Positions 420-63,662 of a stretch of DNA of 63,662 nt are shown piece after piece. Source of the DNA: Chytridium lagenaria (lineage: Eukaryota; Chytridiomycota; Chytridiomycetes; Chytridiales; Chytridiaceae); contig JAHLKC010000182.1 of assembly GCA_025449115.1 (NCBI GenBank), positions 1 through 63,662 of the forward strand. The letters run 5' to 3'. Made by a program: the position numbers and the translations under genes. Numbering within the stretch: the first letter of the stretch is position 1; each line of letters opens with the position of its first letter. The notes below the pieces were generated by a model, which saw nothing but the letters and a program-made list of their open reading frames with translations, was not told where the DNA came from and ran no database searches.

Positions 420-2610
420 AGTTGCTTTCGTTGCTTCCGGTTGTTGGTTTCGACTCACCCCACACTTGAGTGAGGTAAAAAAAAAATCGGGGGCGGACTG
501 CACAGAGAATTCAACACTCCCGTCTCAATCAGTCCTTTCCCAGAGGTTTGAGATGGGGATTGCCCCCCGTTCTCAAAATGACTGCCCTTCAATCCGAATG
601 GCTGTTTCGATAATCAGCTTTTGACTTTAGAGTAGCTTTAAGATCTGTTGTCCTCCTATCGTTCCCAATCGCAAAGTCGAGAATCAAAGAGGAATGGAAC
701 AAGGACAAGTGGTACCCGTCCAGAATCGATAAAATGGAAGGTGGTGGAATGGAGGTGGTGAGTGAGAATGGCAAGGGGGTGTATGCCAGAATGCCAGAAT
801 ACGACTGCAGATGTTTGAATCCGCGCAAATATTGAAAGACAATGGTTCAAGATAATCCTTTTTTCTGTCTCCAACCTCACACGCACAAGCACTTTTCGTT
901 CAGTGCAGCTTGCGTCCGAAGACCGAAGGAGGGACAAGATGGTGGTTGTGGTGGTGATGGGTGTGTAAAAGACGGAAGAATGAGAGAGAGTGTGTGTGTG
1001 TCTCTTTTCAAAGTGTAAAGAAACGGCCTCCTCAGAGTCGAAACATCAATTGAGACCAGCCAGCCAATGAGAAGCGCTTTCTCCTCCTTTACCCACTCGT
1101 TCAAAAAAGCACCGTCATCCATCCATCTGTGTCATTTTCTTTTTTATTTTTTTATTTTCACTTTCAATGCTCCGTATTTGAGCCATCTATTATGAAAAGA
1201 CAGTTCATTGGCTGTTTTCAACCAATGATGACACTAGGTGATACCTGCCATATGCTTTGTGCACCCATGAGTGCTGGCATGGAAAAAGGATGGATAAAGT
1301 CGAGAGAAAAGGCGGGAGAGAGGAAGGGAGGTCCCTTCTTTCTTTCTTTCTTTCTTTCCACATTATTTTATTATTATTATTATTATTACATATCCTAGGG
1401 GGTTAAAGAAATTTAAAAAAATATTAGTTAGCGTAGGGTAGTACACTGCCAAAAAACAAGTTAAATCGAATTAACTTCAGACCGCGTATGAACATATCTG
1501 TATTTGGGGGCGCATATTCGCCCCAAAAAAATTTTCAAATATGTAGTGTAGTTAATTTTTACGTTAATTTTTAATATATTTGTGTAGCACGATCGGCTAA
1601 ACCAAAAATCCTGGCATTTTGTGCAGCTCCGACAATTTAGTTTTCCAGAAAGAAAAAATTGCCAGGAATTTTCAACTCCATCATGTGACTATATCCAATC
1701 ATTTTTTTTCCGATGATTCTTTTATTGAGTATAAATTACCAAACGGGTGTAACAATGCTTTTATTAAAACTAAACTTTTTTATTTTATTTATCATTGACT
1801 ATGTAGGGGCGCCGTATTCGTTCCGTCGTTTGCCTTCCGCTCCGCCGTCGTCGTCCTCGGTCATCGTATCGCTGGAACCCCAATCCCCCCTCCACATCAA
1901 CTCTTCTACTCCACCGCCTTGGCCCTACTCGTTCTCCTGCCTCGCTGTCGTCCTCACCTGCTACCGAATCGCCGGACGCCATATCCTCAGCTCGATCCTC
2001 CCACCGTCGCCTCCTGCGCACCTCGATCCTCCCCACCGTCGCCTCCTCACCTCTCACCTCGATCCTCCTCACCGTCCACTCCTCACCTTTATCTCCCCAC
2101 CGTCGCCTCCTCACCTCGATCCTCCCCACCGTCGCCTCCTCACGCTCCCATCTGCCTGACGTCGTATCTTAACACCGGCATCCTGTTTCCACCACCTATC
2201 TTCACACCGCCGTCGTGACCGTCGTCGCTCTTGATTCAGCACCTTGAAATGGTTCAACTCCGTTTCAGTGCATTTAATGCTTGACTAAAAAAGAGGCGAT
2301 AGATACCTGACTGAACGGACTGAACGGATTTACTGCAATTACAAGAGTTCGTCGAATGTAAAAAAGGCATTTATGATTGAATTTATATAACAAAGCTCAT
2401 AGGCAGATAACTGTTCAACATGGAATTCGAACTGATGACTTGACGATGGGTTTTCCACAAAGGACAACTTCGATATTTCTCATTTTTTAATTTTCAGAAA
2501 AATTTTAGTGAATATATATTTATAAATTGTTTTTAAAATAGTATAAATTCTGAGACGCTAACTGCAGAAGCTTGTTTTGAAAGTCTCATTTTAAAAATTC
2601 AACTCTCCAT
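420..2610. repeat. Intergenic region with simple repeats, a hairpin and a C-rich minisatellite
   Basis: I see no convincing gene. The region holds a TTTC microsatellite (about 1337-1360), an ATT microsatellite (about 1368-1388), a GGGGCG/CGCCCC hairpin with loop CATATT (about 1507-1524) followed by an A run, and a degenerate C-rich minisatellite (about 1995-2150) built on units like CTCGATCCTCCCCACCGTCG. The open frame across the minisatellite (1713-2159) is low-complexity and is not called as a gene. Confidence 0.6.
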
Positions 2611-49482: not shown

Positions 49483-52400
49483 TTAGTTCGGTGGGTCTGC
49501 GTATTCCGGTATTTGCTCCCAGTGTTGGTTAATTGCTGCTACTGATAGGAGTCGTTGGGCGTTGGCGAGGATTCCCGGAGCAGAGGCTTCAGCCAGCCAT
49601 TCCGCTGTCTCTTCGGCCACTGAATTGTAAAGGATGTCACGGGTGCGGGTGAGGTCGAGGAGAGTGGTGCGGATTCGTTCGATGGCTTCAACGACCAGGC
49701 GGATTTTGGGAATGTTGTGGGCGGTGTATTTGAGGGAGGAGATGGCGGTGTCGAGGATAGTGGAACCTGGGGATGGGAGGGGCTGGATGTTTGGGGAAGA
49801 GAGGGGCAAGGAGGTTGGAGATGTTGGCGCATATGATGGCGTGTGAGCGGGATACTTCAACGTTGGGGCCACATCGGGAGCATGTCTGGTGTTGGGCGAC
49901 GGCTCCTAGAAGCCATTGGATGAGGGGTCGTTGGTGGTGTCGGGGGAGGAATGTAGAGGAGGAGATAATGGGGTGTGGCTTGCCGCGTTTGAGGATGGGA
50001 AGGAGGCGTCCGGTGCGGCTGGTGGATTGTTGTTGGAGGGTAGTGAGGTCGATTTGGTGAAAGGTGTCGAGAAGGAGGGGGGGAAGGGCGGCGGTGAGTT
50101 TAGGGGGCCTGCCTACCACAAACACTCGTTGCGGCACAATAAGCGGGTTTTGGTTGAATGGGGTGAGTGAGGGTGTAAGGAGGGGCCAGAGTGGGGTTTT
50201 TTCGTCTGGATTGAGAGATGAAGGATTGATGGAGGTCGGGGAGGATGGTGCGGCCGCGATAGGAGGTCACGGCCAGGTGGGTGATATCGTTGGATTGGTG
50301 TAATCGAAAATAGAAGGAGGCATTGAGGGTGTGGTTACGGGAGGCCATGGTGGGAAGGTTGGAGAGGAGATGTAGGGCGGGGATGCTGGTTTTAGAGGAG
50401 ACACCGAAAAGACATCTGAGAGCAGCGTTTTGTACGCGTTGCAGTTGGTCGGTGTGTTGTTTTTGGCAGAGGCGTAAGGGCAAGGCCATATTCCATCATG
50501 GGTCTGATAAGAGTCTTATAAATCCGGATTGACATCTGAGGGCGCCATCCCATACTGTTCATCCCAATAGCGCCCAGCCATCCTACCATTCGTCGAGCTG
50601 CCCCAATGCGTGGAAGGAGCGAGGCGTCTACGTCGGCCCCGCGCCCTCCCATCATCATCCCTAGATAACGTGCTAGTTCCTTCTGTGTGATGGGGTCCAA
50701 GACGAAGGGGAGGTGCTATAAGTCTCGTCGCGACTGAAATGGTCTTCGTCGCGTTAAAGCAGATTCCCACCGACTCATAACATTCATTAAGAAGGATTTG
50801 GAGGATGGGGAGTAATACGTGGAAGAGAACAATATCATCAGCAAAGAGGAGGGAGTTTAGACGGGAGTTATTTAATAGTACGGATGTGGGTGTGAAGGGG
50901 AAGATATTTATGGGGAGATTGCGGAGTCGGGATGGGAGGGGGTTGATAAAAAAATTAAAAAGAACCGGCGCAGCTAGAGTACCTTGAATAAGACCCCTCA
51001 ACACCAGTATTGGTAACGACTTGTGCCCGAGGACCAGGAGAAAGGCTAGATTGAAGTCAAAAAGGGCTCTGAGGAGGGGTACAAGAGTAGAGTCAGTTTC
51101 ATCTTTTTCTAAAACAGTTCCAAGGAGTTAAGAAAAACGGGACCAGAGTATACGGCGGTCCACAGTGTCATATGCGGCCTTAATGTCGAGGTAGACGCAG
51201 GTAAGATCTGGTTTTGTGGCGATGGCTTCGTTCAAGACCATGACTTGTTCGAGACTAGATCGGCCGGCGCGGAAACCCCCTTGGGCTTTATCAAGAGTGG
51301 GGACGATACGTTTGTCGAGGGGAGGTCGGATGATGGCTTCGAAGGTCTTCCTGAGCATGGACATGAGGGAGATGGGGCGATAATTGGCAACATTAGTATT
51401 CGGGCCCTTGCCTTTATAGATAAGGGCGACGTTTGCGTGTTGCCATGGGGAGGGAATGCATAGATAGGAGACGATGATCTGAAAGAGGGAGGTAATGGCT
51501 GGAGTGAGGGTGGTGGCGGCAATGGATAGCATTTCACCGTAGACGCCGTCGTCTCCGGCAGCTTTACCGGATGGGGAGTGTGTGAGTGCGGTTTTAGTGA
51601 TGTCGGGAGATATCCAGGGGGGGAGAGCGGCTGGGGGGCGGGAACGTTGTGGATCGGTGAGGTGGAGGTATTCGTTGTCGGGAGGTTCTGTGCCTGATGG
51701 TGGTGCGCCAAAGGTAGTCGAGAAATAGTTGGTGTAGTCTTCTAGCTTGTTGGGGTCAAGGGCGCAGGAGGTTTCTTTCTGTTCTGGCCTTCTTGCAGGA
51801 GATGACTTTGATGGCGGTGGTGTGGTCTCGTGCGAGGTCGTCTACGCGAAGTCGGAAGTGTTTTAGGCCTCGTCTGCGCGCCGCGGTACGGTATAAGCGG
51901 TTGGCGGAGGTACAGCGGAGCCAACAGTATTGGCGGTCGGCGGGTGATGCATGGAGCCAGGCGAGGTGGGCTTCGAGGGCTTTTTTGGCGTAGGTCGGAG
52001 AGGAAATCTGTTTTGAAAGGCTTTGGGGGCGTAAGTTCCTGAGTACTTGAAGATGCCTCCTGCGGCTACGGCAGCTTCCGTGATGGCGTCGGTGATGAGG
52101 GTGTTGGCGTGGTCTACAACGGTTTGGCGGGTGGCGATGGGGAGGAGGGTCTGCTGTTGGCGTTGGATGTGGATGGTGTTTAAGGTATCGGTTAGTTGGG
52201 TATGATGGAGAGGAGTAGTTGGGTGAGGGCGGTGTTGAAGTCTTCTGGGATTTGTCGAAGTTTCTTAATGTTGATGCGTTGGAACGGCGGCTTATGGGCG
52301 TTACCTGGTTGGGAAATGGAGAGGGAAATAAAGCAGTGGTCGCTGCCATGCGTTAGATGTTCATGTATAGTAAGGACAGGGAGTAGGGTGAGGGCAGCGG

Positions 52401-53049
52401 CGTTTGCGAATACATAATCCGTAATACTTTTCCCATTCTGGGAAAAGGTAGTCCAGCGTCCTGTTGTAGGAGCTATCCAGTTCCAATCCGGGTCGTCCAA
52501 CCAGTCCATCATCCATTGACGTCGGTGTTGGTGGGGGCACATTTGATGATCGTTGGTGTATAATCCCATGCGGGTGTTAAAGTCTCCTACTATGATGCAG
52601 GGAGCGTCGGGGTGTTGGGCCAGGATGTTGTCACGGAATTGGTTAAAGGAGGTGAGGAGGAGGGGAATGATGTGAGGGGTTGTGATGAGTGGAGGGAGGT
52701 AGGCGGTGATGAGGATGAGGTTGCCGACTTTGACGGCGGTCCATTGGCCGCCGTCAGGTGAGGCAAGAACTTGGGTTGCGAGTGGTCGTGGAGATGAGTT
52801 GACGGTAAGGACGCCCTTCTGGGCGAGGCGACCATGATGGAAGTTGGGTGGAGGAGTGTGTGTTGAGTTGGCGATGACGTTGGATAGCGGTGGGGTTTGT
52901 GTTGGGAGGAGCCAGGTTTCTACAGTGGTTAGTATATCAATTTTGAGTTGTTTGCAGGTGTCCGACAGATCATCAGCGCGCCCCGAGAGGCCTCTAATGT
53001 TCTGGAATCCAATGCGGAGGAGTGGTTCTTCAGGGTCGTGATTAAACAT
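49483..53049 (-). CDS. LINE ORF2: APE endonuclease and reverse transcriptase (frame interrupted)
   Basis: The protein nicks target DNA and copies the element RNA at the nick. The APE domain is at 53049-52290, with IGFQNIRGL, TTVETWLL, IIVGDFNTRMG, ITDYVFAN and THGSDHCFI; this is the LINE-type endonuclease. The RT domain covers about 51530-50500: ANYRPISLMSMLRKTFEAII, GGFRAGRSSLEQV, VYLDIKAAYDTVDR, LIQGTLAAPVLFN and the catalytic box LLFADDIVLF (FADD at 50834-50845). The thumb-like part includes RPMMEYGLALTPL and VQNAALRCLFGVS. A C-terminal motif TCSRCGPNVEVSRSHAIIC (C-x2-C-x9-H-x4-C, near 49860) is usual for LINEs. Frameshifts lie near 52250, 51720, 51130, 51000, 50700, 50480 and 50130. It is probably a dead copy or one with consensus errors. 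Confidence 0.85.
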
Positions 53050-54666
53050 CGGTATTCATCCTTGTGCTCGAGGAGGAGGAGGAGGTTTGGGGTCGGGAGG
53101 TTTCTGCAGCGATGTTGGAGGGGTAGGGATGGAGGGGCGTGGGATGAAGGATCCAATACTGAGGCGACGGCGGGGGTACGTGGCGAGAGTAAGGCCAGCC
53201 ATTTCGAGAGCAGCGGTCTGGATCGAGGACGGGAATTCTTGGAGTACGCCGATGCGTTTAGAAGGTCCAGCTCTTTTAAGGAGAACGGCGAGACGTTTAA
53301 CGCAGAAATCCCGAGCATCATTTTTGAGGAGTGCAGTGGTGTCCTGGTCATCTTTGTGCGCTTCAGCAATATGGGGGGGAGTTCGAGGGGGTCAAAGTTG
53401 CGGAGGAGAAGCATTTGTTTTGAGAGTTGTTCTTCAATGTGGTCACGTTGCATTTCGTCGATAAGGAGGTGGACGACGGAATTCCCCACGAAGCTCATGT
53501 CGATTACGCCATTGGTGATGCCGAATTTACGTAGGGCTGAGCGGATAAGTTGTACGCGGACAGGTTTAAAGGTGGCGGGGAATGTTGGCCTCGAAGTATA
53601 TATTATGGAGGTGTTCTGCGAAGTGTGGTTGAGGTTGTTGGGGTTGCTGGTTGTACGGAGTTGACGATTGGCGAGGCTTCGAGCAGCGACGGTGTCATTG
53701 GCTGTTCCGTGGTAGACGCTACGTACCGCGTCTGCGTAGGTGAGCTCAGCAGGGTCTCTGTCGTCGGGAGGGGTCTTTTTGAATATCTGTGATTTGTTGT
53801 TAGTAGCGGGCGTGCTGTTAGTTGTGTTAGTTGGGGAGTGATGATCGATAGCAGGTCCTTTGCCCTTGTTCAATGGGGTTGAAGTGATACTAGGAAGGGC
53901 GTCTTTCAAGATGGATTGTATGAGGGCGGTAATGGATTTCTTCCAGGAATCGGGGAAGATGGGGGTCTCAGGGTTCTTCTCGAGGGGGTGGTCAGTGACA
54001 GGGTGGGAGGCCGTTTCGCGAAGTTTGGCGAGTTCGCGGTCCTGTTCTTCGCACTTGCGAATGAGTTGTTCGTTAGTTTGTTGGAGCTCATCAACTCTTT
54101 TGGTGAGGGCAAGTATGGTTTGATTGAAAGTGACGAAGGCGGTATCCATGGTAGTGCCGTCGGTGTCAAGGTATGTCGTGGTGGGTGGGGGGTTGCCTTG
54201 TTGGTTTTGAGGTGGGGATGGGGTGGAAGATGTTGATGATGGGTTGGGAGGGGTTTGTCAAGTGATCCTTTGAAAAAGGGATGGAGGGGTTTATGGGATG
54301 CTGTGTTGGATGGATTGAGTTTAGGTTGTGGGGTGAGGAAGGAATTGGGGGTGGTTGTCGGGGGGGTGATTCTGGGGGGCGTAGTTGCGGCGGATGCGGT
54401 CTTCGGGATTGAGGATGGGGAGGTTAAGTTGGGCGTCGTTTATCTGTTTGCTGAGGTCGACGACGTTGGGTTGAGATGAGTTGTGATCCAGGATAATTTG
54501 AAGGCTGGTTTTTTCGTTGCAATTGGAACAGAGGAAGACGTGGTACTGGACACCGCGGATATTGTGGGTTCCAGCTCTTCCGGATGAGGACCAGGTGGTA
54601 GGGACTTTTGAACACTTAGGGCAAGTGATCGATCGTTTGTCCAACTTCTTCCAGAGACTTAGTCAT
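52929..54666 (-). CDS. LINE ORF1: zinc-ribbon and coiled-coil nucleic-acid-binding protein
   Basis: The likely start is MTKSLEE at 54666, one base out of frame with what follows. The N-terminus has a zinc-ribbon-like pattern (TCPKCSKVP ... VFLCSNCNEK). After a frameshift near 54240-54320 comes a Leu-heptad coiled coil (ILALTKRVDELQQTNEQLIR, near 54090), a Thr/Asn-rich linker and a conserved-looking region (RKFGITNGVIDMSFVGNSVV, QLSKQMLLLRNFDPLELPP) that may be an RNA-binding fold. The frame reaches 52929 and overlaps the ORF2 start at 53049 by about 120 bases, so the last part may be a wrong frame after an indel. ORF1 proteins usually coat the element RNA. Confidence 0.7.
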
Positions 54667-56071: not shown

Positions 56072-56571
56072 CATGGCTACTACCACTTCCCTTTCTTCAA
56101 CTGGCTCTTCATTCTTCGTCCGCCGAGGTTTAAGGGCACCACTTTGTTGAGTTTGATGAACACATGAGGAAAGTGCGTATTTACGCGCAATCCAAAGGTG
56201 TTTCTCATCTTTACGATGCTGGTATTGTTATTCCTCCTCCTGTTGCTCCTCCCGTCATTCCTGCTCCTGGCGATCCACCTGTTGTTCCCGCTGATCCCGC
56301 TGATTTTGAGGATTTCCGACTCCTCATGGCTAACTGGACCGCTCGGTCGAATAGCTACCAACAAGAGCGTGCACACTTTGATCGTGAACTCACGCGTCGG
56401 GAGAAGGCTTTGCAGTCCAACGAGGTTGCAAAGGCTATCCTTGATGAATGTTTTCAATCCGGTGATCGAAAACGTGTTGAAGGATTGGTGAACGCTTCCG
56501 AGCAAGTAACTGCCCTTCGTCAGCTTGGTGATCTTCTCTTGACCCATCCCTCCCTACCTAGCTTCGACTAG
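56072..56571 (+). pseudogene. Second LTR-element Gag fragment
   Basis: MATTTSLSSTGSSFFVRR starts at 56072; after two frame changes near 56135 comes VEFDEHMRKVRIYAQSKG, a Pro-rich linker and a helical region (WTARSNSYQQERAHFDRELT, KAILDECFQSGDRKRVEGL) to the stop at 56569-56571. The GTTFVEFDEHMRKV pattern resembles the start of copia-type Gag proteins. No zinc knuckle or pol follows on this strand, so it is a fragment. Upstream TATA and a leader of about 120 bases resemble the arrangement of the gag at 47824. Confidence 0.5.
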
Positions 56572-57140
56572 GGGGTAGGGGAGAAGAGTAAAGGAGTTGC
56601 TCCAGCAGAGCAAGTCCACAGAGCACCTAGGGACAGGATGTACTCCTGAATCTAAGTGATGTTGTTGTTGTTTGGCGATGGTGTGGGTGAGTGATCGCGA
56701 GATTCTGCTTAATAAAGGGAGAAGGGAACGTGTTTAGTATCTTCTATGTCGACTTACCTTGCTAATAAACCAATATGAGCACCAGATCGTCTCCTGGCGA
56801 TCGGGGATGGCTGAAAGCCTCCTTGCCTTCCTGCTATGGCACCTTTTGGAACGTGATGATCTCGTTGCCTCACGAGCTGGCACAGGGTAACCTCACTCAT
56901 CACCTGCCTGCAGCGTCGATCACCGGCTCGGGGATCATCAGAGGTGGAATGTAGCCGACCAAGCCTAAGCTAAAGGACACTGACAATGAGGAGGACCCTT
57001 GGGCTCCCATCGCAGCCTTCTGCTTCAACAGCTGGATTGCGGCTTCACCAGGTGGCAGGGGGTAGAGGGGTGGGCTGCCATCCAAGAAGGAGTGAAGGGA
57101 GATCACGGCGAGGCCACGCGCGTGAGATAGAGGATGGGGG
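56572..57140. other. Region without supported genes
   Basis: Only short frames (for example a 60-codon frame at 56775-56957). Probably remains of the previous element and the flank of the gypsy LTR. Confidence 0.4.
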
Positions 57141-57462
57141 ATCAACTCAATATCAACTACTTAATTCAACAGGTACAAATTAAATCAAGAAATCTCTCAT
57201 ATTAAAGTAATACACAAAATACAAATAAATAATAGACACAACATATGCACAACACATAAACGGCACATATGCGCGCCACCTCCTTCAATAAAAACCCTAT
57301 AAACGTGGGGAAAAACTATATATAAAAAACCCAAAGGGAAAAGAAGGGAGGATTCAATATGACGCGTAAATATACGCGTCGACGCGGATATAACGGAACT
57401 CAACGGACTTAGGCAAATGTCTTTATGAGCCATAGGCCATGTGAATAATGTAATTCTTCACA
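57140..57462 (-). repeat. 3' LTR of the gypsy element
   Basis: Read on the minus strand it begins TGTGAAGAATTACATTATTC at 57462, right after the polypurine tract, and contains a TATA-like TTTTTATATATAG (near 57315-57327). The inner end is uncertain because the second LTR is not in the window. Confidence 0.65.
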
Positions 57463-57970
57463 TTCTCCCGTTTTTAAGAAAAGACTTACGTAGAAAAGTC
57501 TAACTTAGTTGTCAGAAGTATAGAACTATCTGTAATAATCAGAGCTGCAGTATCGGCAAGTCTATAAGGCCAAGTATTGGCAAGGGTTATGTAATTGTTA
57601 CCGCCTAGCATTTCTATAGCTAAAGGTACTTCAAAGGATTGTCAGATAATCATCATCCAGATTATTGTCTATATCAGGTTCCGACTGAGGAACGTCATTA
57701 TCAATAGCATTCTGGGCATCAGAATCTATTGGTACAGCTTGCGTAAAGTACGTTTAGCCTTGCGCTTACGTTTCTTTATGGGGCTAGGAGGGGTATCATC
57801 AAGGATACCTTCATTTTCATCCTCACTACGATAACCATCATTATCTCCAGGCATCGTGTAGGATATGGGCTTAGGCGCAAGTCTCTTGCGGCCAGCATTC
57901 TTTTCATATACTACTCTGAGAGCATATGCTGTGGGCTGTGTTTTAGCAACGCGGTCCCAGTAATCTTTAA

Positions 57971-60900
57971 CTATGGATGAGGGTAAGGCCCTTCATCCAT
58001 TAGAAGGTTATGCGCGGTTCCATGACCGAGCCATTTAACATAATACTTATACTTTTTGTTATGAGAATCATAAGTATGATAATCCAGTTTCTCAACATAG
58101 AACTCAGGATCATTATAGTCAGCATCAGCAACTTCTTCATCAAATCGTCGAAACAATTCACGATTAACTCCAACTGCTACCTTATTCTTAGGCATCCGTC
58201 TAATAACTTGGAGTTCTTTCCATGCTGCAATCTCAGCAGCAAAGTCATCTGAAGCTACTTCTGCAGATGCAGCATTAGCAGTCTCTGTAGGCGGCAAAGA
58301 CTCAAATGGTCTGAGTCTAGCAGCGTTAGCAAGTCGTGATAAGAGCTGACCTCCAGGGAGGAGCTCTACAACTGTGTATCTATTGCTGTCCATAGATTTA
58401 CTAAGGACACGCATAGGGCCAGCCCATCTAAATTGGAACTTCTTAGTGGGGGCATTCTTGTTCTCTTTCCCTCGACGTTCAGTCTTCAAGGGAACAGAGA
58501 GCCATACCAGGTCGCCAACATCAAACGAGTGTTTGTTGCGACTGGGTTTATTTTGTTGTGCTCGTCTCTTGCGTTTAAGTTCTGCACGCAAGAGTACAGC
58601 CTTGAGTAGGCTAGTCTAGCAGCTAGCTGAGTAACATAATCTTAGCCTCCAAACGATCATCATCATCGTTGAGGGATTCTTTGACAAAGTCCTGCAGGGC
58701 TTGTCGAGTATTCATGAGCACACTCACATGTGTGTCAGTGTCTATATCATCTTCAGGAGGAACATAGTCATCCTGATCGTCATTGACTTCAAGTTCAATG
58801 ATTCTCACATGCCGTGCAGGTCCATCGTCAACAAGGGGACGGCCAGCATTGAGGTGTATAATATCTGGGGAAAGTACCAGAGTGTCGTTGACATATAAGT
58901 TCATGGCGTTGTCAACAAATATGGGGTAACTGTCACGCAAATGGGGCGTTCGGTCATACAGCCATTATGAATAATAGATACATAGGCATCTTTTTCTTTC
59001 CCATGCAAAGTCGTTTTCGCTTTACGAGTTAACGAATGCATCTGGGAAGATTCATTCCTTCCAAAGGATCTCCATTGGAAGGTGTGTCCAAGTCGCTTCA
59101 TCACGTGGATGTGGACAAGGTAAAATAGATCATAACCTATTTCTTAAGGACGTCAGCTATGAGCAAGTAAGGCTCTCGACCATCAGTCCGAGCAAGTCCA
59201 TGAGCGGCTCGCGCTAAGCGGCCGTCAAAGAAGTGTAGCTGTTCAGAGAACATAGCAAGTATTTTAGGAAGAGCTCTGCCAGTATCCTCTAGTAGTGGAA
59301 ACAGCTATCAGAGGTTCTTCTCCTGTCTGAGCCCATAATCGTGGGTCAGGATATTCTTCCGCAAACACATCGTCTGTGGGATAACCAAACTTGAGGTCAG
59401 CCGGCGTAAACGCTTCACGGCCAAACATCATCATGAATGGGGTTTCATTTGTGGTCTGGTGGACCGTTGTTCTGTATGCAAACAACACATAGGGGAGTAT
59501 TTCATCCCAATCGTCATGTGTTCTTTGGTTTATATATGCACGTATCATCTGGCATAAGGTTTTGTTTGTTCGTTCAACTAAACCGTTGGCCTGAGGCCAA
59601 TACGGCATAGAGAAGGATTGTTTCATTCCTAGTACAGTAGAAACTCTCTTAAAGAGGTCACTAGGAAATGGTTGTCCCTGATCCGAGTGTAAGTCAAGGG
59701 AATTCCAAAGCGGCAAAAGCATTGCTCAACAAACTATTCTAGCAATGGTGTTTGCTTCTAAGTCGGGGACGGCAAACGCATCGGCCCAACGGGTAAAGTA
59801 GTCTGTGAGGACAACAATGTACTTGTTGCCACGTTGGCTAGTGTTCATAGGACCAACGATATCGATGGCACACGATCCCAAGGTCTATGACCAAAGGTAT
59901 GGGCCTCACGGCACCTTTTCTAGTCAAGTTATCTTTAGATTGTTGACATGTGGGCATCGTCGTATATATGCCTCTAAGTCTTTTTGGATGTAGGCCACCA
60001 AAACCTATCTAGGGTAGTGGCAATAAGTCTGCGAACACCGAGGTGTCCTCCAGCCATCATATCATCATGGACGGCGTCAAACGCAACATCCTGAAGTCTT
60101 TGGGGACACATAAAGCGACTCGCACTGGCGATCGTCGCATAAGGTAGTCCTTCACGTAGAGTACGCGGTAGAGACTCTACCACGCATCACCATATTCTGG
60201 GCATTCATTAAAACACCCTTTCTTAGATCAGGATCCTCAGGAAGGATTCCTTTCTCTAGAAACTTGATGACGTCGGCAAATCTCAAGTCATTTCTTTGGG
60301 CTTTAATAAAGTCACCAGATATCTGTCCATTAGCCATGAAGGCATTGGGAACAGTATTTGCATTCCTATCATTGCAGAAGGCCCGGGGTTGTTTGGGGCT
60401 TCATGCGGTGGCTCTTGATCAGGTAGTCAAGTGCCGGCAATGAGATCATGTTGTCATAATCATTGTGGTGAGCATCGCTGTGCTCTAAGACCAATTCAAC
60501 CATTTCATGGTCAGTCAGTGACGCCACAAAATGGTGGTTGACATTCCATTTACAAGGAATTCGTTTATCTACAAAGCGTAGTCTATTCTCCAAACAGCTT
60601 TATAGAACTCTGTTGGATCATGCCAAGTATATCCTGGCGTATGCGGATGGCTATGACGAAATCCATCCTTAAAACCTAAGTTAATGAATGAGCTAAGCCA
60701 GTAGCGTTCATCGTTGCGGAATCCAGAGTATCCATAAAATCTGGATGGTTCTCGAACATCAATTGCTTTGTGAGCAATATTGAAATCGCCTACAACAATT
60801 GTATTTGACTGAGCTTTGAGACTCTTTACAAAAGTATGTAGTCGTTCCAGGAACTTCATCTTGTATTCCTGTCTGTGATCATGCCTCGTGCCATTTGGCG

Positions 60901-63662
60901 CATAGACATTCACTATATTCATACCTAAAAGGCAGAGTGTAAGGCACCGTCCCTCTTCAACAAAGTCGTCGAAGTCAGTGCGCATCATATGAGTCCCACA
61001 TATTACTGAAAGTACGGGGATATCTTCGCGGACCATGGTCATAACACCATTGTGTCCATTTCTTTTGTCGTCAGCATACATCTTCCATCCGCGGACGGAC
61101 TTCAGTTGTTGCCAAAACTTTTCATGACCATCGCCGACCATAGTCTCTTGGAAGCAGGCGATGTCACATTCCATTTCATCCAAATATTTAGCAAAGAACT
61201 CTGCTCTATTGGATTCATCACCTTCAATTCTCTTTGCAAAGTGTTTCTTAACAAGAGCTTGAAGGCTGTTCACATTCCAACTTATAATCTTCAACTTGGA
61301 AGAGCGGAATGGTGTTTGTATATCATCAATGGGATATAACTTTTTCATTGACTCTGGTGGGAAGTCGTGGATCATACGAGAAGGAACATCAGGCAGGCCG
61401 TCGTTCTCTCAACGCCATATATCTCGCGTAGAGATGGGGTGAGTCTGCAGTTGTCCTCTTTTCATTGAGGGGTGAGAAGAGCTCACGTATCTCAAGTATT
61501 TCATAAGCAAAAACTACTTAGAGATTTTGGACCAGTGTCAGGCACTGGGTAGTTTACAGCATCTGGTGGTATACCAGCATTAACTGTTATGACATGGGTA
61601 ATTTGTCCAGGTATGTGCCTAGGTGCGCGAGAGGAGTTGACCTCAGGATCAGGCACCTGGCAAATCCAGAATCGGGTAGTTCCTGTGAACTCCCGTTTTT
61701 GATATTCAAATAGTCTGCGTCTCTCGAGAATGTCCTTCAATCGAGATGACTTTATCCTGACAAAGACATTGTCAATGAGCTGTTTCAGGAAGATAACTTC
61801 ACTGGAAAGCAATGGTCGATCAGATCCAAACTCCCGTTTTTGAGAAGGAGAAAAGACATGGGCGGGCGGGTGGGTATAATCAATGCTAATCGCAGAAGTT
61901 ATAGTTTGCAAAAGTTCTTTGTTCTTAACTTTAGCATCTTTTCCGATAAAGACTCGAGGGGCGGTCTCAGGGAAGTCACCAACCTCTGAGTCATCATCAG
62001 GTATAGGCTTTGGGGGTTTGAAGCTGCGTGAGAGAGCGTCGGCAACGGCCTGGCTCTTGCCGGGAACATGAACCAACTCAATCTCATGATCCTGTAGAGA
62101 GTATGACCATCGGGCAAAGCGGCCCTTCAGGTCACCTCTAGCAAACAGGGGATTAAGGCTGAGTGATCAGTCTCAATGCGGTATGGTTTGCGCCATGTGT
62201 AAGTCTCAAAGAGGTTTGAAGACCACACAACAGCGAGACCCTCGCGGTCAGTGTTAGAGTAGTTCTGCTCAGCATCGTTCAACGTGCGTGAAGCAAAAGC
62301 TACAGGATGGTATATGCCGTCGCGATTCACAAAAAGCGCAGCACCAATTGCGTACTTAGAAGCATCGCAAGATATAACGAACTTATCGTCTGGTAATGGA
62401 GTTACTAATAGTACCTCAGATTTGAGTATATCTATCAAGCGTCGAAAGGCTGCTTCACAGGAGGCAGTCCAGTCAAATGAGATCTCTTTGCGAGTGAGAT
62501 CATATAATGGTTTTGCGACGTCAGTAAAGTTGGGTACAAATCGTCGAAAATAATTAGTGAAACCAAGGAATCGTTGAATATCCTTGACTGTTTTTGGTAC
62601 AGGCCAATCTTCAAGCTTCACAAGCTTATCAGGATCTGCTTTTATCCCATCTTCAGAGACGATATGACCCAGGAAGGGTAAGACCTTGAAAAGGAACTGA
62701 CACTTCTTAGGCTTAAGCTTCAGGTTGTACTCATATAGTCTATCAAATACAAGCTGAAGATTTTCGAAGTGGGAATCCACATCCGTTGAGAATATGATAA
62801 TATCGTCAATGTACACCATACATTTGATCCACTTTATTCCAGCAAGGACTAAGTCCATGCATCTCTGGAAAGTTGGTGGACTATTTGTGAGGCCAAAGGG
62901 CATCACGTTGTACTCATAGAGTCCATCTGGGGTAACAAGGCAGTTTTGTGACGATCCTCTGGGGCTACAGGTATTGCCAAAAGCCTGAGAGGAGATCAAG
63001 GGATGAGAAGAGACACATCCCGGCTAACCGATCAAAGGTCTCATCAATGCGTGGTAAAGGATACTTATCCTTTATTGTGATCTCATTGAGGCGACGGAAG
63101 TCAGTGCAGAATCTGTCAGCACCGTCCTTCTTTTTCGCGAGACACACGGGAGATGCGTGAGGAGAGCGTGACTTCCTATGACGCCAGTCTTCAGCATTTC
63201 CTCGACATGGTCGCGGATGATCTTAGCGCGCTCTAAACCAACGGGTAAGGAGCCATGTTGGGAGGGCGAGAATATGGTTTTGTTCAATGGTATGGTAACC
63301 AGGGTCCTTTGTGCCTGTTCTAACGTATTCACGAAAGACATCAGCGTTCTTAGGAATTGACAAGAACTGGATGAGTCGCTCACGCAGTTGCATATCAGTA
63401 ATGTGCTGAAGATCAAACTTCTTCAGAAGATCCTCAGTGGTATAGGATCCATATTCTTAAGGTAATCCATGCGATCCTCATTCGTGGTGTCATGAGGTCT
63501 ATGACGGGAGGGCTCTTCCAAATCAGGGCCATCGTCAGCTGGAGTTTCCAGCAGAGCTTTTGTGACAAAGTCAGGAAGAGGGGGAATATCAGGCATTGAG
63601 CCGTATCCTTCGTCAACGGGATCTAACTCCTTTTGTGAAGTCAGGATATCCGTGTCGGGCAA
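57971..63662 (-). CDS. Gypsy Pol: RT, RNase H, AP endonuclease, integrase, chromodomain (frame interrupted)
   Basis: Reverse transcriptase: [51 protein letters not shown] and the catalytic VYIDDIIIF (62802-62813). RNase [37 protein letters not shown] and [14 protein letters not shown]. Then the AP-endonuclease module (60500-61320; separate entry). The usual pre-integrase segment [20 protein letters not shown] follows (60250-60320), then the HHCC finger ([21 protein letters not shown]). The integrase core has [22 protein letters not shown] and [11 protein letters not shown], the three acidic residues. After an unfamiliar stretch (58620-59260) come [27 protein letters not shown] and a chromodomain-like end ([19 protein letters not shown]; stop 57971). 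The order places it near chromoviruses. At least eight frameshifts, several at homopolymers, interrupt the frame. Confidence 0.88.
58620..59260 (-). other. Unrecognised coding segment between integrase core and GPF/chromodomain
   Basis: Where gypsy integrases usually have a short linker, about 200 residues of coding-like sequence appear across frames: [110 protein letters not shown] and [20 protein letters not shown]. The last piece joins [13 protein letters not shown], normal integrase helix sequence. I do not recognise a domain. Confidence 0.5.
60480..61375 (-). CDS. ExoIII/APE1-type AP endonuclease module inside gypsy Pol
   Basis: This domain cuts DNA 5' of abasic sites in base-excision repair enzymes. 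The module begins near [19 protein letters not shown] (61290-61250) and shows every family hallmark: metal ligand Glu in ACFQETM (61142-61157), [45 protein letters not shown] (60771-60790), [36 protein letters not shown] and WRIDYAL (60577-60592). After a one-base shift near 60590 it ends [12 protein letters not shown] (60502-60515), the Asp-His pair. These correspond to Asn68, Glu96, Tyr171, Asp210, Asn212, Asp283, Asp308 and His309 of human APE1. The upstream link reads in frame from [17 protein letters not shown]; downstream it runs into Pol. It is much closer in style to cellular ExoIII/APE1 than to the LINE endonuclease at 52290-53049. Confidence 0.9.

Follow-up and report, generated by a model that had tools for sequence, protein, structure and literature searches.

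To our knowledge, long terminal repeat (LTR) retrotransposons and retroviruses are taught as having a fixed enzyme set (protease, reverse transcriptase (RT), RNase H, and integrase), and as encoding neither a repair nor a proofreading enzyme. Here, we describe a Ty3/gypsy (Metaviridae) element from the chytrid fungus Chytridium lagenaria (assembly GCA_025449115.1). The genome itself points to a fungus, with 23 matches to the fungal-specific transcription-factor domain PF04082 (against none in 14 prokaryotic genomes used as controls) and with multi-exon actin genes; hydrophobin, tried as a further fungal marker, matched neither here nor in the control and is uninformative. The analyzed stretch of DNA, called the window, is the whole contig JAHLKC010000182.1 (C182), which ends at position 63662. 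It carries one copy of a multi-copy Ty3/gypsy LTR retrotransposon with a predicted apurinic/apyrimidinic (AP) endonuclease domain of the ExoIII/APE1 class inside Pol (referred to below as the APE domain).

Several LTR elements with an additional enzyme have been reported. In KnitGypsy-Dnmt3, the Gypsy Pol frame also includes a cellular-type DNA enzyme, whose catalytic residues are conserved and whose Ka/Ks is below 0.2, but this enzyme is a cytosine methyltransferase (PMC5890265). An extra enzyme has likewise become fixed in orchid Ty3/gypsy elements with an N6-methyladenosine (m6A) demethylase domain; these differ in that the enzyme is an RNA demethylase, the host is a plant, and they are described as recent (PMC9289625). 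Archon/Chronos and Tat are Ty3/gypsy elements which independently gained an extra nuclease domain, but there the added domain is a further (second) RNase H (PMC5348765). LTR elements of rotifers and basidiomycetes that carry a dUTPase resemble our case in that the extra enzyme is linked to uracil and cDNA quality; however, the dUTPase is located between protease and RT and is not a nuclease past RNase H (PMC5408684). Exo_endo_phos domains are mentioned for the Kuafuorterviruses, an LTR group with animal hosts, but are “only present sporadically” and thought to be host-derived, and the passage that mentions them describes no fixed position (PMC11673190). A survey of fungal LTR elements reports “complex transposons” with “many additional domains” resulting from multiple insertions (PMC3248453); this is possibly an earlier, unremarked sighting of elements such as the one described here.

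Extra enzymes in LTR elements are thus known (DNA methyltransferase, second RNase H, dUTPase, m6A demethylase). In the open-licence papers of PubMed Central, with Repbase Reports and most subscription journals being outside this scope, we found no report of a gypsy family in which an AP endonuclease is fixed in the interval from RNase H to integrase. A fixed APE domain in this slot, which is strongly supported as a feature, is apparently new. The element conforms to Ty3/gypsy in its domain order (RT, RNase H, H2C2, rve), its TG...CA LTRs, and its short target duplication. It deviates from Ty3/gypsy by the APE domain, often following an ASCH-like domain, between RNase H and integrase, and by the length of about 16.1 kb seen for the copy on contig C76.

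The APE domain and its position in Pol

The APE domain is encoded at 60477..61306 on the minus strand. The corresponding 279-residue open frame (60569-61408, minus strand) matches Exo_endo_phos (PF03372) with an E-value of 5e-16. Compared to solved structures, it matches exodeoxyribonuclease III/APE1 enzymes, with 54 distinct PDB sequences at E-values up to 0.001 and a best value of 1.2e-27. The xth model (TIGR00633, cutoff 99.05 bits) scores 158.9 bits at 60530-61294 of the window and 127.8-155.5 bits in four element proteins. Over the own genome (42 Mb in 356 contigs), 28 of the 117 xth matches listed are above the cutoff. The columns N, QE, Y-P, D-N, R-D, and DH are invariant in 18/18 aligned sequences, and we take them to represent the catalytic set N, E, Y, D/N, D, and D/H on APE1 numbering. 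For a close copy (L012), the predicted fold of the domain is that of APE1/ExoIII over its whole length, with APE1 exonuclease complexes among the best fold matches. We assign the Pol-embedded domain to the ExoIII/APE1 (xth) class, and AP endonuclease activity is predicted from its sequence. It shares with this family (xth; APE1, ExoA, Mth0212) the score level, the catalytic residues, and the whole-domain fold, but is distinguished by its location within Pol and by segments additional to those of cellular enzymes, located close to the N-terminal helix and in the middle of the domain.

A chance sequence match is ruled out by the PF03372, PDB, and xth scores, which are far beyond chance. A LINE (long interspersed nuclear element) endonuclease nested in a gypsy element was also considered and is ruled out by the xth-class score and by the one-frame place between Pol domains. 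The LINE endonuclease of the window (52193-53055), the only one compared, forms a very long outgroup branch (7.4) in the APE tree.

The original prediction, made from the letters of the window, had placed an ExoIII/APE domain between RT/RNase H and the integrase finger on the same strand. This holds: RT/RNase H occupies 62026-63338, and integrase, with its H2C2 finger and core, 60105-59300, with the PF03372, PDB, and xth matches in between. The prediction had also described the upstream link as being in frame. For other copies (C76, C198) this is correct; for the window copy it is wrong because the Pol pieces there lie in different frames. RT/RNase H, the ASCH-like domain, the APE domain, and integrase are all affected by this, and the window copy is hence broken. 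Within the APE domain, the frame changes near 60572, and the last motif (TDHEM) falls in another frame.

Distribution, mobility, and selection

A six-frame search of the own genome resulted in at least 148 APE matches, many at 90-100% sequence identity and others near 44% within very long open frames. An open frame of 2573 residues on C198 extends from protease to a chromodomain-like tail, exiting at the contig end, and combines RT, RNase H, APE, and integrase. The same four domains are found in one frame of 1604 residues on C95. RT, RNase H, and APE share a frame of 1308 residues on C324, and a frame of 1145 residues on C76 reaches from the end of RNase H to past the integrase, with the APE domain included.

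When own-genome matches were merged, 71 RT loci were obtained: 34 in group A (the group of the window copy), 31 in group N (other gypsy elements), and 6 in group B (a second lineage). The labels were assigned prior to counting, by RT identity and inspection. The table of loci was typed and merged by hand from search results that are lower bounds. An RT scrap (C155:72751-72987) was excluded, being a piece of a locus already counted, as were about a dozen weak integrase matches (at most 28% identity, E-value >1e-11), none of which is positioned to form a pair with any counted same-strand RT. Downstream integrase is present in 27 of the 34 group A loci (in two cases at a distance, 7.3 and 8.9 kb), and the APE domain lies in between in 27/27; of the remaining group A loci, four have APE without integrase and three lack both. 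In group N, 16 of the 31 loci have an integrase, usually 355-699 bp past RT, and APE is found in 0/16; the other 15 have neither integrase nor APE. In an open element of group N (L042), RT and RNase H are followed by a short linker and integrase.

The occurrence at the same site in 27/27 related integrase-bearing loci strongly supports the earlier view that the domain is encoded by the element, and rules out a one-off insertion beside a host gene. A search for the module at this site in other gypsy copies had been suggested, and it was found there, so that the one-off reading is not upheld.

Six LTR pairs were chosen by eye from the LTR search. Five of these have an exact 4-bp target duplication (C76, GGAT; C3, GTTG; C49, AGTT; C131, AGTA; C16, TGGC), and each of the five encloses an APE match. 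The flanks of the sixth pair (C105) do not match, and it may represent two different insertions. The copy on C76 (L012, L029) spans about 16.1 kb between its LTR ends. Its LTRs are near-identical, differing at 2 of 937 aligned sites plus 8 gap columns, and this APE-bearing copy has therefore been inserted recently. On four contigs (C80, C114, C291, and C319), a pair of APE fragments with identical scores (query 115-170 and 163-242) is found about 1 kb apart, as if these were copies of one rearranged fragment.

Lineage B is a second, very distant gypsy lineage in the same genome with an RT that is only about 30% identical. In this lineage, too, an xth-type domain of its own separates RNase H from integrase (131 bits on C11). 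This domain is present in 6/6 loci, five of which also have integrase, but this count is descriptive and not a test because lineage B was recognized through APE. The loci are L019 (C11), L020 (C95), L021/L033 (C115), and those on C63, C94, and C137; they are devoid of an ASCH-like domain. In the RT tree, A and B group together against Ty3 and the other gypsy sequences (91/93), which is flagged as a long-branch join.

Outside the genome, the APE region of L009 was used as the query against about 5.8 billion proteins, and one protein (P0001) was retrieved out of 661 candidates. P0001 is a metagenome protein (JGI) of 3585 residues with 46% identity over 61% of the query. Its order is protease motif, RT, RNase H, APE, H2C2, and integrase, and it is placed within group A both in the RT tree (A 94/94) and in the APE tree (A 99/99). 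From 4668 candidates, a second protein search retained two weakly matching proteins (29% identity), neither of which is clearly an element of this kind, and one scan of IMG/VR gave one pattern match, with no relative confirmed. An additional protein, P0003 (933 residues, from an ENA contig of 3308 bases), carries Exo_endo_phos together with RT domains of the group II intron type (RVT_1, PF13655, PF08388) and is apparently a different RT-nuclease fusion.

Between close copies, the APE domain evolves under purifying selection. The ratio of nonsynonymous to synonymous substitution rates (dN/dS), computed pairwise by a simple method, is 0.014 for L012-L016, 0.017 for L012-L014, and 0.096 for L012-L013; in distant pairs, synonymous sites are saturated. 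In lineage B, two stretches gave 0.06 and 0.10, at dS values of 1.4-2.2, which are near saturation. The dN/dS comparison proposed with the original prediction thus yields 0.014-0.10 in close pairs, plus one partly broken pair at 0.58 (see below). We are nearly certain that the APE domain genuinely belongs to the element, is fixed in it, and is under selection.

The origin of the domain had initially been attributed to capture of a host APE mRNA. In the APE tree, an intron-bearing APE-like host gene (C71) and an Apn2-like host gene (C26) are on the cellular side, with the element domains in long-branch groups of their own; the host sequences were joined by eye from exon pieces and have long branches. 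The tree does not bear out this attribution, and it gives no support for the host's own APE gene having been captured recently.

Other parts of the element and its surroundings

In many copies, an ASCH-like domain lies between RNase H and APE. In the window, this PUA-type domain (61449..61779, minus strand) is split over two frames and is 100% identical to L012. Fold prediction on nine relatives gave ASCH domains as best matches; YTH, EVE-like, and McrB are lower-scoring matches of related fold. The stretch is thus predicted to adopt an ASCH (PUA-like) fold. Because the sequence profile is not recognized (Pfam ASCH in 0/9 members at E-values up to 10, and no match in a PDB profile search), we call the domain ASCH-like and not a member of the ASCH family. 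It is a second extra domain that was absent from the original prediction. Two tandem arrangements were observed (L018:5934-5653 and 5416-5115, minus strand; L036:1473-1736 and 1986-2288, plus strand). The distances from RT to APE cluster near 320, 600-750, and 1100-1330 bp, as if there were zero, one, or two ASCH-like copies.

RT and RNase H of the window copy (62026..63338, minus strand) are spread over at least two frames and were delimited by Pfam matches and alignment to relatives. For the relative L009, comparison of this region with the Ty3 RT/RNase H (4ol8) gave an E-value of 5.5e-79. The part of Pol preceding RT (63339..63662, minus strand), to which the L009 alignment extends as far as 63435, is cut by the contig end; because contig C182 stops at 63662, this copy lacks its 5′ part. 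When gag and protease were checked, protease-type DGGAN/DSGAN motifs were found in L009 and P0001, and the upstream frames of L029/L030 had no significant Pfam match. Two long frames of 752 and 408 residues (L030:5839-8094 and L030:4123-5346, both minus strand) are located upstream of gag/pol near the 5′ LTR of C105 and also lack a Pfam match; the element may encode a further protein.

Downstream of the APE domain, the H2C2 zinc finger of integrase (59980..60105, minus strand) matches PF17921 with an E-value of 1.2e-7 in the open reading frame 59975-60186. The integrase core (59300..59869, minus strand) is 93% identical to the C76 copy, and rve (PF00665) is detected in L009, L010, and L012. 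A conserved post-integrase region of about 190 residues follows (58758..59283, minus strand, three frames), which was delimited by alignment to relatives and has its matching part in L009/L012. Its fold is unassigned, and two four-protein Pfam/NCBIfam scans that covered the region gave no domain. It is located between the integrase core and the C-terminal tail of Pol (57522..58615, minus strand, two frames), which is 96% and 67% identical to the corresponding parts on C76 and contains a chromodomain-like stretch. Matches to Chromo (PF00385) are below the curated cutoff of 25.1 bits both in L009 (E-value 4.1e-4, 20.7 bits) and in L012 (E-value 0.046, 14.1 bits).

The 3′ LTR (936 bp, 56527..57462, minus strand) was delimited by repeated copies in the own genome that share its edges. 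Near-full or partial copies account for 40 of 43 matches in the LTR search (C234 being partial), with sharp edges common at query positions 29 and 963. The outer edge is TGTGATC in the compared copies (in the window, G replaces the first T), and the inner edge is TTCACA. Adjoining the LTR is AAAAACGGGAGAA (element strand; 57463..57475, minus strand), a candidate polypurine tract by position and composition. An open frame of 145 residues (56134-56571, plus strand) crosses the outer LTR edge, and the element may therefore sit inserted in another element or gene. A separate LINE-type element (50517-54257, minus strand) is found a few kb from the gypsy element, with endonuclease matches (PF03372/PF14529) in 52193-53055 and RT pieces in 50517-51841.

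Proposed role of the APE domain

The best explanation, which we consider somewhat better than an even bet, is that the Pol-borne ExoIII/APE1 domain would repair abasic or 3′-blocked lesions of the cDNA prior to integration. Brought in by Pol, either fused to it or cleaved from it, the domain would lie beside RT in the particle. There, it may incise uracil-derived or oxidative abasic sites in the cDNA and clear blocked cDNA 3′ ends; gaps would then be refilled and integrase would receive sound ends. The ASCH-like neighbor may help to hold nucleic acid. The functions proposed with the original prediction are reasonable candidates. Whether cDNA repair would be the main job of the domain appears evenly balanced to us.

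The catalytic motifs of RNase H and integrase are kept in L009, L010, and P0001, and those of integrase also in L012. Because these motifs are kept and target-site duplications are present, the enzyme is more likely an addition than a substitute. That the domain makes up for a dead RNase H or a dead integrase was considered and rejected, as both motif sets are present in L009, L010, and P0001.

Several points weigh against cDNA repair. Enzymes of the ExoIII family also act as 3′-5′ exonuclease, 3′ phosphatase, RNase H, and uridine endonuclease, and the sequence does not tell which of these activities the element relies on. Cutting a cDNA at abasic sites could destroy it if it is not subsequently repaired. 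The window copy itself is broken, and the RT of the C76 copy carries stops despite the near-identical LTRs, which may mean recent decay, help in trans, or an assembly error. For the pair L010-L035, dN/dS is 0.58 for APE versus 0.054 for RT-RNase H, in part because the tail is frame-changed. Finally, the joint figure for the domains of lineages A and B in the APE tree is 59/0, and a shared capture is only a possibility.

The main rival holds that the domain is mainly a 3′-5′ exonuclease or 3′-end processor, which would proofread RT or trim primer remnants and untemplated bases of a cDNA of about 16 kb. It can draw on the exonuclease activity of the family, on the APE1 exonuclease complexes among the best fold matches, and on the large size of the elements (about 16.1 kb for C76, 3585 residues for P0001), but exonuclease and AP endonuclease cannot be parted by sequence alone, and the second lineage also has the domain; we regard this rival as a tentative possibility. 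A broader scenario is that an ExoIII/APE domain became fixed in the same Pol slot twice, independently, in gypsy lineages that are deeply separated, one of them with an ASCH module, as a cDNA repair and proofreading unit for very long elements. In LTR elements, such a unit would correspond to the proofreading exonuclease that the largest RNA viruses have; the scenario is, in our judgment, rather unlikely. Counter-defence, in which the domain undoes a host attack such as deamination editing of cDNA or DNA, would explain fixation in two lineages and fits the chain from deaminase to uracil to abasic site; however, the host already has enzymes for the later steps (the C71 and C26 genes), and we consider it improbable.

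AP-type endonucleases nick target DNA in non-LTR elements, and a LINE with a domain of this type is present in the window (52193-53055). The APE domain might thus be an integration nuclease that provides a second entry route. We find this highly improbable: integrase motifs are kept in L009, L010, L012, and P0001, the copies end in LTRs and are flanked by 4-bp duplications of constant size, as is typical of integrase, and the domain is of the xth class and well separated in the tree from the endonuclease of the local LINE. That a host gene without a role was inserted or misassembled into one gypsy copy is hardly credible: although the window copy is broken and many copies in the genome carry stops, the domain occupies the same slot in 27/27 loci, in a protein from another dataset, and in a second lineage, its catalytic residues are invariant, and dN/dS is far under 1 in close pairs.

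A family with APE kept in Pol under selection, and in two distant lineages, makes the upkeep of retroelement cDNA directly testable. It also marks the junction between RNase H and integrase as a slot that takes in extra modules.
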